64,000 nt of DNA from Phytoactinopolyspora mesophila (GTDB taxonomy: Bacteria; Actinomycetota; Actinomycetes; Jiangellales; Jiangellaceae). The notes under the pieces are model-generated. The model was not told the DNA's origin and ran no database searches. It worked only from the letters and a program-made list of their open reading frames with translations. The translations under genes and the position numbers were made by a program. The DNA is taken from assembly GCF_010122465.1 (NCBI RefSeq), contig NZ_WLZY01000003.1:248001-312000 (forward strand), read 5' to 3'. Positions 16,918 to 59,990 of the stretch are shown one piece after another (the stretch's first letter is position 1; every line of letters starts with the position of its first letter).

Positions 16918-17226
16918 TCAGAGCTTGATCTCGATATCGACACCAGCCGGCAGGTCGAGACGCATCAGCGAGTCGACTGTCTTCGGCGTGGGATCGATGA
17001 TGTCGATGAGCCGCTTGTGTGTACGCATCTCGAAGTGCTCGCGGCTGTCCTTGTACTTGTGCGGCGAGCGGATCACGCAATACACGTTCTTCTCGGTCGG
17101 TAGCGGCACCGGGCCCGCAACCTGCGCACCAGTACGCGTCACCGTGTCGACGATCTTGCGCGCCGACGTGTCGATAACCTCGTGGTCGTAGGCCTTGAGC
17201 CGGATGCGGATCTTCTGTCCCGCCAT
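16918..17226 (-). CDS. rpsJ: 30S ribosomal protein S10 (NusE)
   Basis: A 102-residue protein, [20 protein letters not shown], with [20 protein letters not shown] and the closing [12 protein letters not shown]10 is in the 30S head and also acts as NusE, which links NusG to the ribosome. It is the first gene of the long S10-spc unit. A leader of over 200 bp with a conserved element lies upstream. Confidence 0.98.
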
Positions 17227-17282: not shown

Positions 17283-17308
17283 CGACCCCCGCGGTCGGGC
17301 GTGTCGCC
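17283..17308 (-). promoter_or_regulatory. 26-nt leader element, copy upstream of rpsJ
   Basis: On the transcribed strand this 26-mer starts GGCGACACGCCCGACCGCGG. It is identical over all 26 nt to the element at 22291-22316 upstream of rpsL. It lies 56 nt before the rpsJ start codon. CCGACC and GGTCGG can pair to form a 6-bp stem with a 5-nt loop. Occurrence in the leaders of two ribosomal operons suggests a shared RNA signal or a conserved transcript start region. No protein ligand can be named. Confidence 0.6.
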
Positions 17309-17688
17309 CGGATAACGGGCGCATGGCGCCACGTTCCGATGACGTGCGTCTCGTCGGGGAGTTCGGCTGGACCAGACCCTCCATGCGGGCCGGGCCGCTG
17401 ACGAGGAGGTCTCCGTATCGGCAGCGACCACCCGAATTGACTTTGGGCAGCGCGCCACGGCGGCCTCCGCCGAGCAACCTGAACAGTATGCCAAAGAAAA
17501 CCGGTCTTTGGCCAATCCGGTGATCAGAAGGGGTGCGGCTCCGAATTAACAACCCGGCCGCCAACCTCAACCTGACCTTTTTCACTTATTTACCCCGGCC
17601 AGCTCGCGCGACAAAAATGCCGCCCACGCTCACCGATCGTCGAGTTCTATGGTGTTGACCGACCCCGGACGGAAAGCCGCGCCATCAA

Positions 17689-21335: not shown

Positions 21336-21806
21336 TTACCAGCGGTAGTGGGCGAAGGCCTTGTTGGACTCGGCCATCTTGTGGGTGTCTTCGCGGCGCT
21401 TCACGCTGGCACCTAGGCCATTGGATGCGTCGAGAATCTCGTTCATGAGTCGCTCGGTCATGGTCTTCTCGCGGCGCGCACGCGCGTAGTTGACCAGCCA
21501 GCGCAGCGCCAGCGTGGTGCTACGGCCAGCGCGCACCTCGACCGGGACCTGGTACGTCGCGCCGCCGACCCGGCGGCTGCGGACCTCGAGCGTCGGCTTC
21601 ACGTTGTCCAGAGCACGCTTCAGCGTGACGATGGGGTCGGTACCGGTCTTCTCCCGGCAGCCTTCCAACGCGCCGTGCACAATGCTCTCGGCCAACGACT
21701 TCTTGCCGTCCTCGAGGACTTTGTTGACCAGCTGAGATACCAGCGGCGAGCCGTAGACCGGATCGACCACCAGCGGCCGCTTCGGAGCGGGACCCTTGCG
21801 GGGCAT
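21336..21806 (-). CDS. rpsG: 30S ribosomal protein S7
   Basis: A 156-residue protein, [20 protein letters not shown], with [20 protein letters not shown] and a C-terminus ending [10 protein letters not shown]7 starts assembly of the 30S head and contacts E-site tRNA. Its ATG shares one base with the rpsL stop (TGATG), so translation is likely coupled. Confidence 0.98.
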
Positions 21807-22180
21807 CAGCTCTTCTCCTTCTTCGCGCCGTACCGGCTACGAGCTTGCTTCCGGTTCTTCACACCCTGGGTGTCGAGCGAACCGCGGACAATCTTGTAAC
21901 GAACACCGGGCAGGTCCTTCACCCGGCCGCCACGCACGAGCACCATGGAGTGCTCCTGAAGGTTGTGGCCCACACCGGGGATGTACGCCGTGACCTCGAT
22001 CTGGCTGGTCAGCTTGACACGCGCAACCTTACGCAGGGCTGAGTTGGGCTTCTTAGGGGTGGTCGTGTAGACGCGCGTGCACACGCCCCGCCGCTGCGGA
22101 CTGCCCTTGAGGGCAGGCGTCTTCTTCTTCGCGACCTTGTCCTGGCGGCCCTTGCGGACCAGCTGCTGGATCGTGGGCAC
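21806..22180 (-). CDS. rpsL: 30S ribosomal protein S12
   Basis: A 124-residue protein starting at GTG 22180 ([20 protein letters not shown]). Lys43 in [12 protein letters not shown] and Lys88 in [14 protein letters not shown], where streptomycin-resistance changes usually fall, are wild type. S12 lies in the decoding centre. It is the first gene of the str operon and has a 110-nt spacer to the conserved 26-nt leader element. Confidence 0.97.
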
Positions 22181-22290
22181 TACGTCTCCGTCATCCTTGT
22201 TGGTCGGCCGGGGCGCATGCCCCGGAGTTGCTCTATCTGTGTCGACTCGCATCCGGTTAGTGCCGGACCAGAGAAAACCGGAGGTCTTGG

Positions 22291-22316
22291 CGACCCCCGC
22301 GGTCGGGCGTGTCGCC
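22291..22316 (-). promoter_or_regulatory. 26-nt leader element, copy upstream of rpsL
   Basis: This copy is exactly identical to the rpsJ leader copy at 17283-17308 and has the same orientation relative to its operon, 110 nt before the rpsL GTG. The CGACC-N5-GGTCG stem is retained. Upstream and downstream sequences differ between the two operons, so the identity is confined to the element itself. The rest of the 343-bp rpsL-rpoC gap holds the rpoC terminator. Confidence 0.6.
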
Positions 22317-22451
22317 TAGTCTCGGTCCCGCACCCGCTCGGATGAAACCGATCGGCATGATTGGTAATTCAAACTCGCCCGCTGTAGGCAGACAAGGTGG
22401 CCCGGTGGACTCCAGGCACGAAGAGTGAGACTACCCGCTCGGGCAGCCCCA

Positions 22452-22493
22452 GGTCAAAGCGGAGGCACAAAAGGGGGTGCCTCCGCTTTGACC
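22452..22493 (-). terminator. rpoBC terminator
   Basis: GGTCAAAGCGGAGGCAC (22452-22468) and its perfect 17-bp complement at 22477-22493 flank an 8-nt loop, 30 bp past the rpoC stop codon. The stem is very stable. There is no U-run after it, which is common among actinobacterial terminators. It separates rpoBC from the str operon. Confidence 0.85.
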
Positions 22494-22523
22494 ATAGCAG
22501 CTGCCTGGCGACCGACACTAGTG

Positions 22524-59118: not shown

Positions 59119-59990
59119 CGGCCGATGCGATGCAGAGGGCGGCCCGCCGGGCCGCCGGGAGAAGCGTGACCGTGCTGTGCAGCGTCGTGGGGCGCCGGCA
59201 GGTGGTGCGAGTTGCCCGATTCGTGCTTCATCGATCACGTCTAGACCTGCCGAACGATCCGCGTACGAACGGCGAGTACGCGCTACAAGGGTGGGTGCTT
59301 ACAGCGCTCCCGGCGACCACTCCGCTGACGGTGATGGACGTCGGCGCGCACGTCGGAGCGTGGTCGCAGAACCTGCTCGCGCTCGCCGGGAGCTCCGCTC
59401 CCCGGCTGGACCTACACGCGTTCGAACCGTCCCGGCATACGCACCGGTTGTTGGCGGTGAATCTCCCGGAGACGGCACGAGTAAACCGGCTCGCCGTGAC
59501 CGACCGGGCCGGCGATGTCGCGCTGCACACAATCGGGCGTGTCGCCGGCCGGAACTCGCTGCTACCGCAGCGGACGACTTCGGCACAGGTCGAGCAGGTA
59601 GGCGCGACCACTATCGACGACTACCTGGCTCAACAAGACATCGAGCACGTCGACCTGATGAAGATCGACGCCGAGGGCCACGACTGCCGTGTGTTGCGCG
59701 GGGCCGAGCGATCGTTCGAACGGCGGGCAGTATCCATCGCGCAGTTCGAGTACAACCATCGGTGGGTGCATGGTCGATGCTTCCTCAAAGATGTCTTCGA
59801 CCTCCTATCGCCGCTCGATTACCGGATCGGGAAGCTGACCCCCCGGGGCGTGGAGTGGTACCCGGCGTGGGATCCGGACTTGGAAACCTTCGTGGAAGGC
59901 AACTATTTGGCTTGCACACCGGAACTCGCGCGACGGCTTCCCGGCATCCGCTGGTGGAAGGAGGGCACGCCATCGTGCACGTCGGCCTGA
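59115..59990 (+). CDS. FkbM family methyltransferase
   Basis: A 291-residue protein. The SAM site is TVMDVGAHVGAWSQNLLALA, HAFEPSRHTHRLL follows, and VDLMKIDAEGHDCRVLRGAE is the FkbM signature. FkbM enzymes O-methylate polyketides or sugars; in this context a glycan O-methylation is likely. It overlaps the flippase by 4 bp and the next gene by 16 bp. Confidence 0.88.
   Translation: MTADAMQRAARRAAGRSVTVLCSVVGRRQVVRVARFVLHRSRLDLPNDPRTNGEYALQGWVLTALPATTPLTVMDVGAHVGAWSQNLLALAGSSAPRLDLHAFEPSRHTHRLLAVNLPETARVNRLAVTDRAGDVALHTIGRVAGRNSLLPQRTTSAQVEQVGATTIDDYLAQQDIEHVDLMKIDAEGHDCRVLRGAERSFERRAVSIAQFEYNHRWVHGRCFLKDVFDLLSPLDYRIGKLTPRGVEWYPAWDPDLETFVEGNYLACTPELARRLPGIRWWKEGTPSCTSA

Follow-up and report, generated by a model that had tools for sequence, protein, structure and literature searches.

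WhiA, the regulator whose systems lie closest to the locus described here, binds the core GAYACRCY in Mycoplasma gallisepticum (Fisunov et al. 2024, PMC11701221). There it controls the rpsJ operon through two-domain binding and ATP-sensitive repression, and its use of the core together with an auxiliary motif has been demonstrated by EMSA, thermophoresis and reporters (PMC11701221). Most of the species that have retained whiA, Actinobacteria among them, carry the core ahead of the rpsJ operon according to the same paper, and in some clades it is accompanied by clade-specific motifs further downstream. The Mollicutes site is placed 22–40 nt after the start site; a test of blocked elongation gave a very weak effect only, and WhiA action is placed by the authors at the initiation step (PMC11701221). 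In Streptomyces venezuelae the reported WhiA consensus is GACAC, and targets that include S10 are expressed at a lower level in the whiA mutant (Bush et al. 2013, PMC3781837). In vivo WhiA binding in this species depends on WhiB. One chromosome holds 15,116 copies of GACAC, of which only a fraction is bound, and the authors called for further specificity determinants (PMC3781837).

Here we analyse a repeated sequence in a 64,000-nucleotide stretch of the Phytoactinopolyspora mesophila genome, referred to as the window, and propose that it is very probably an operator of WhiA, recognised as duplex DNA within the transcribed leaders of two operons, S10 with rpsJ and str with rpsL. The original prediction, made from the window alone, was of an identical 26-nt repeat upstream of the two operons, and direct search shows the pair to be genuine and unique in window and genome (Table 1). 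On the minus strand, the sense strand of rpsJ and rpsL, each copy reads GGCGACACGCCCGACCGCGGGGGTCG, in gene orientation, and the flanking bases differ, as had been stated. At up to three mismatches the window contains two matches against 0.00 expected from 100 dinucleotide-preserving shuffles, and the same two sites are the sole matches in the whole 6.5-Mb genome, where a reversed control pattern finds 0. Within the repeat, a 24-bp element, CGACACRCCCGACCKCGKGGGTCG, is conserved across the class. Its 3′ end lies 56 nt upstream of the rpsJ ATG and 110 nt upstream of the rpsL start, for which comparison with relatives favours the GTG at 22180 over a listed ATG at 22252. The repeat is limited to these two ribosomal operons and most likely co-ordinates both.

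Table 1. Features of the two leaders, in window coordinates
Feature	Position	Strand	Basis
26-base repeat, rpsJ (S10 operon) copy	17283..17308	minus	direct sequence search
24-bp conserved element, rpsJ copy	17306-17283	minus	within the 26-base repeat
Putative WhiA core GACACGCC (fits GAYACRCY), rpsJ copy	17298..17305	minus	core definition from PMC11701221
Invariant CGKGG of 3′ half, rpsJ copy	17287..17291	minus	inferred candidate contact of second WhiA domain
rpsJ (S10) coding sequence	16918..17226	minus	ATG start at 17226
Predicted rpsJ -10 TACTGT	17483..17488	minus	followed by conserved CAGGTTGCTCGG
-35-like GATTGG of predicted rpsJ promoter	17517-17512	minus	sequence prediction
26-base repeat, rpsL (str operon) copy	22291..22316	minus	direct sequence search
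24-bp conserved element, rpsL copy	22314-22291	minus	within the 26-base repeat
Putative WhiA core GACACGCC, rpsL copy	22306..22313	minus	core definition from PMC11701221
Invariant CGKGG of 3′ half, rpsL copy	22295..22299	minus	invariance among 47 elements
rpsL (S12) coding sequence	21806..22180	minus	GTG start (22180), by comparison with relatives
Predicted rpsL promoter: -35 TTGACC; -10 TAGTCT	22457-22452; 22433-22428	minus	conserved-pattern match
Hairpin GUGCCUGG...CCGGGCCAC at predicted rpsL mRNA 5′ end	22397..22419	minus	separate from the element

The reading as a DNA operator is the better one because the first half of the element matches the published WhiA binding site. In the ortholog-based class set, positions 2–9 fit GAYACRCY in 18/18 rpsJ and 32/35 rpsL elements, these having been chosen at up to four mismatches to the whole element, a choice that biases the set towards the core. 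Of 47 distinct elements, 46 have G or A at the variable seventh base, in keeping with the R of GAYACRCY. A second motif is conserved at a constant distance 3′ of the core: across the 47 distinct elements C16, G17 and G19 are invariant, and position 18 holds either G or T. The sequence of this motif is unlike the GTTGT of Mycoplasma. Some of the invariance in the 265 elements that served the promoter, gap, helix and core-position analyses is built in, because loci found with the motif itself are included, and the ortholog-based set is the fair one. Taken alone, GAYACRCY is short and common, with 14 matches in the 64-kb window. The genome encodes an intact WhiA (L347, 748–1728; TIGR00647, E = 3.6e-108) that carries all three Pfam domains, PF14527, PF10298 and PF02650, and whiA is present in 12/12 class genomes of the whiA search. 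At 25 named Streptomyces loci the centre of the element lies a median of 76 nt before rpsJ, and Table 1 of the S. venezuelae study places a WhiA ChIP–seq peak 75 bp before this gene (PMC3781837).

Conservation was assessed in several samples of differing independence. Scanning public genome contigs for the exact pattern yielded at least 120 stretches; rpsJ or rpsL is the next gene in 118 of the 120 listed, the next gene being identified with seven query proteins only, and the other two stretches fall at a locus end. As these loci had been found by the motif, leaders were also sampled from the positions of the orthologs. Both genes were first located in 118 genomes of the phylum and 138 of the class, and the resulting fair set comprises 41 class genomes (31 families) and 31 genomes from outside the class, with the element counted as present at up to four mismatches. 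Relatives had been named as the place to look, and there the element precedes rpsL in 35/41 and rpsJ in 18/41 class genomes, so that the absence once entertained did not occur. At least one of the two genes is preceded by the element in 38/41 genomes and both genes in 15/41. The three genomes with neither all belong to one family (f31), in which core copies occur near the rpsJ promoter. When each class leader with a match was shuffled 100 times, no shuffle equalled the match. Outside the class, 1/31 rpsL and 0/31 rpsJ leaders match at this threshold, with four further rpsL leaders at five or six mismatches. Whole-genome scans at up to three mismatches found matches in 21/22 genomes of the same order (20/20 of those of good quality), mostly as two copies, and in 279/296 genomes across the class, a count that includes chance hits; single hits at three mismatches are judged partly chance from the reversed control and from five loci (L047–L051) that have no adjacent rpsJ or rpsL.

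The rpsJ copy varies with the arrangement of genes before it. Among 29 genomes with an adjacent tuf, nine carry the rpsJ element, with tuf–rpsJ gaps of 249–411 nt; it is missing from all 15 genomes with gaps of 85–153 nt and also from five with gaps of 210–305 nt. The rpsJ element was found only with a long gap after tuf, or where tuf is not adjacent; in the window the gap is about 0.6 kb. From this pattern of gap lengths, the rpsJ copy seems to be restricted to S10 operons that have room for a promoter of their own, as if the element followed promoters, and where the rpsJ copy is absent the rpsL copy may serve both operons. The rpsL site, its conservation throughout the class, the way it tracks gene order and the longer consensus in two parts look new, and the letters of the element have no match in the open-licence papers searched.

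Where the element lies relative to transcription bears on the suggestion that it is a start-site signal, that is, part of the promoter or of the first transcribed stretch in each operon. A first look at a few leaders had suggested AT-rich hexamers just upstream; as -10 boxes these were dropped when conserved promoters were found further upstream, and the sequence 5′ of the element has no conservation at a fixed distance. Of 113 rpsL leaders, 93 carry a TTGACC/TANNNT promoter no more than 260 nt 5′ of the element, against 1.5 expected after shuffling, and the end of its -10 box is separated from the element by a median of 120 nt (quartiles 105–137). The rpsJ leaders have a separate conserved promoter that ends in GGTTGC, as seen in a thinned list (n = 57); 41/152 rpsJ leaders have no GGTTG[CT] in range. 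No predicted -10 or -35 box falls within the repeat, and the predicted promoters lie upstream of it. In the window, predicted transcript 5′ ends fall at about 22421 for rpsL and at 17476–17479 for rpsJ. Since these promoter-like sequences stand roughly 100–170 nt upstream, the element is probably within the transcribed leader and is not the start site; the start-site idea was not borne out, and we regard it as barely credible, even though a core copy lies in the promoter spacer of one Brevibacterium locus and those of family f31 adjoin the rpsJ promoter. A transcript start downstream of the element, the opposite arrangement, is addressed by the predicted promoters only, and these lie upstream. 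The experimentally determined -10 box of Mycobacterium smegmatis rpsL is reported to fit TANNNT (PMC6529629); a transcript start for rpsJ or rpsL is not spelled out in the passages considered from PMC6599336, PMC2904383, PMC13236596, PMC6448022, PMC10937400, PMC8269248 and PMC6529629 itself.

Several further features of the promoter regions were recorded. The rpsJ promoters of many families share the arrangement GATTTGG...CAYACT...CAGGTTGCTYGG (window about 17517–17466, minus strand), which implies that the first transcribed bases are conserved too. At the end of the rpoC–rpsL gap, a long, perfect-looking hairpin, AAAGCGGAGGCAC...GTGCCTCCGCTTT (window 22457–22499, minus strand), lies just before the rpsL -35 box and overlaps it. 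A hairpin in family f21 was considered as an upstream terminator and dropped once the conserved promoters further upstream had been found. Copies of the core also occur outside the element. Seven f31 genomes have CGACACGCCCGRG by the rpsJ promoter (L043–L046, L306, L307 and L320), twice in tandem in L320; in family f21, GACACGCCCG lies upstream of the rpsL promoter (L297, L323, L324, L326, L329 and L331), some 70 nt 5′ of the -35 box in those that were measured; and the Brevibacterium locus noted above is L083. Being at or upstream of promoters, such copies are probably not in the mRNA and are unlikely to act there. A third GACACGCCCG is present in the window at 59543 (minus strand), with a different downstream sequence.

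Position within the leader also invites an RNA reading, in which a structured or protein-bound 5′ leader would allow a ribosomal or other RNA-binding protein to co-ordinate the two operons after transcription has started. Consistent with this, the element appears inside the mRNA, downstream of the predicted promoters, and, among the loci examined for neighbours with the seven query proteins, it is always in gene orientation where a gene was found. The small GC stem of the original prediction can indeed be drawn, but no compensatory changes hold it or any other of the four helices possible inside the element: over all four there is one doubly changed cell in the 47 distinct variants, and the only helices common to all variants are those whose columns are invariant. 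Rfam 15 at gathering score finds three tRNAs in the window and no match at the element. Nor does the element show similarity or complementarity to its own 16S and 23S loci above that of shuffles, its local alignments to the two being matched by 47–197 of 200 shuffled elements. A pairing scan of 202 non-redundant leaders gives a weak, sliding excess about 45–33 and 23–9 nt upstream of the element; its highest sums are few, some of them long-range, and the lowest sums are nearly as large in size. Table 1 of a survey of new ribosomal leaders has no actinobacterial entry for rpsJ or rpsL (PMC7247131), and the element is common to two unrelated first genes. With neither covariation, Rfam match nor rRNA resemblance, a post-transcriptional signal did not emerge from these comparisons and we consider it very unlikely, notwithstanding the weak predicted pairing some 10–45 nt upstream and the covariation of a distinct hairpin at the rpsL mRNA 5′ end. 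The latter (YGUGCCYGG...CCRGGC, found in other rpsL leaders as well) pairs in 80.4% of cells over 35 leaders and shows doubly changed cells 25 times, against 8.4 expected in shuffles, figures that lean towards the hairpin because these leaders were hand-picked from 64.

A DNA site could also belong to a different owner, either another DNA-binding protein that shares GACAC or WhiA together with a partner, such as WhiB, to which the 3′ half would belong. The CGKGG half is as invariant as the core, no published match to it was found, and the dependence of WhiA binding on WhiB in S. venezuelae would accord with a partner; against this, a single WhiA protein contacts both the core and the downstream auxiliary motif in M. 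gallisepticum (PMC11701221), and we judge such an owner unlikely. Outside the class, genomes with leaders divide into 19 with whiA, one of them by the helix-turn-helix domain only, and 12 without. The two-part pattern ACRCCCGR-N2-4-CGKGG, a weaker form of the element, precedes rpsL in 6/19 of the former and 0/12 of the latter (one-sided Fisher, 0.037), and two looser patterns do so in 9/19 versus 1/12 (0.027) and 7/19 versus 1/12 (0.086), a modest association between rpsL leaders and whiA whose strength shifts with the pattern chosen.

In the operator that we favour, the helix-turn-helix domain of WhiA would occupy GACACRCC in the 5′ half, leaving the 3′ half (CGKGG...) to the LAGLIDADG domain, as shown for the core and auxiliary motif in M. 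gallisepticum. One regulator at the same site would then tune both operons together, probably following growth or energy state. The rpsJ site is of a kind already described for WhiA; for the rpsL copy we infer WhiA binding, with the 3′ half as a second contact and joint control of the two operons. The idea of a shared signal co-ordinating both operons survives, as a WhiA-type DNA site at S10 and str. The sign of WhiA control differs between the published systems, which describe a repressor in M. gallisepticum (PMC11701221) and, in S. venezuelae, targets that are expressed less when whiA is mutated (PMC3781837); for the present actinomycete we favour activation or state-dependent tuning. With the element about 100–170 nt after the predicted start, the initiation mechanism concluded for the Mollicutes may not carry over.

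A wider proposal, which we advance only tentatively and would not yet back over its negation, is that WhiA controls a str and S10 regulon in nearly all Actinomycetes through a two-part site (ACRCCCGNNNNCGKGG overall), whose second half adds the specificity that GACAC lacks. The site would be carried by whichever promoter drives S10 and would act more than 100 bp inside the leader by an undescribed mechanism, which might be an early-elongation gate or bending back to the promoter. If a WhiA-type site does stand at S10 and str throughout the class, ribosome production would count among the long-standing and general roles of WhiA in Actinomycetes. Such a site at both operons would tie ribosome production directly to growth state, and the conserved 3′ half would be a candidate for the specificity determinant, at these two operons, that the S. 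venezuelae work asked for (PMC3781837).

Set against known systems, the element resembles ribosomal leaders (r-leaders) in its position in the leaders of ribosomal-protein operons and differs from them in having neither covarying structure nor resemblance to rRNA. With the S. venezuelae regulon (PMC3781837) it shares the GACAC consensus and rpsJ, a ChIP target there with its peak 75 bp upstream; that consensus is a pentamer only, without further enriched sequence, and its orientation is free, whereas here the orientation is fixed. The main texts of both WhiA papers (PMC11701221 and PMC3781837) leave rpsL unnamed, although their supplementary tables could list an rpsL site, and the element here precedes rpsL too. 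The M. gallisepticum site differs further in its auxiliary motif, GTTGT as against the GC-rich CGKGG... found here, part of which the published Actinobacteria logo may show, and in its distance from the start site, 22–40 nt compared with a predicted 100–170 nt or so (PMC11701221). It is nonetheless a close described counterpart: GAYACRCY precedes rpsJ there as well, another motif follows this core, the site comes after the transcript start, and it serves the transcription of ribosomal-protein genes.
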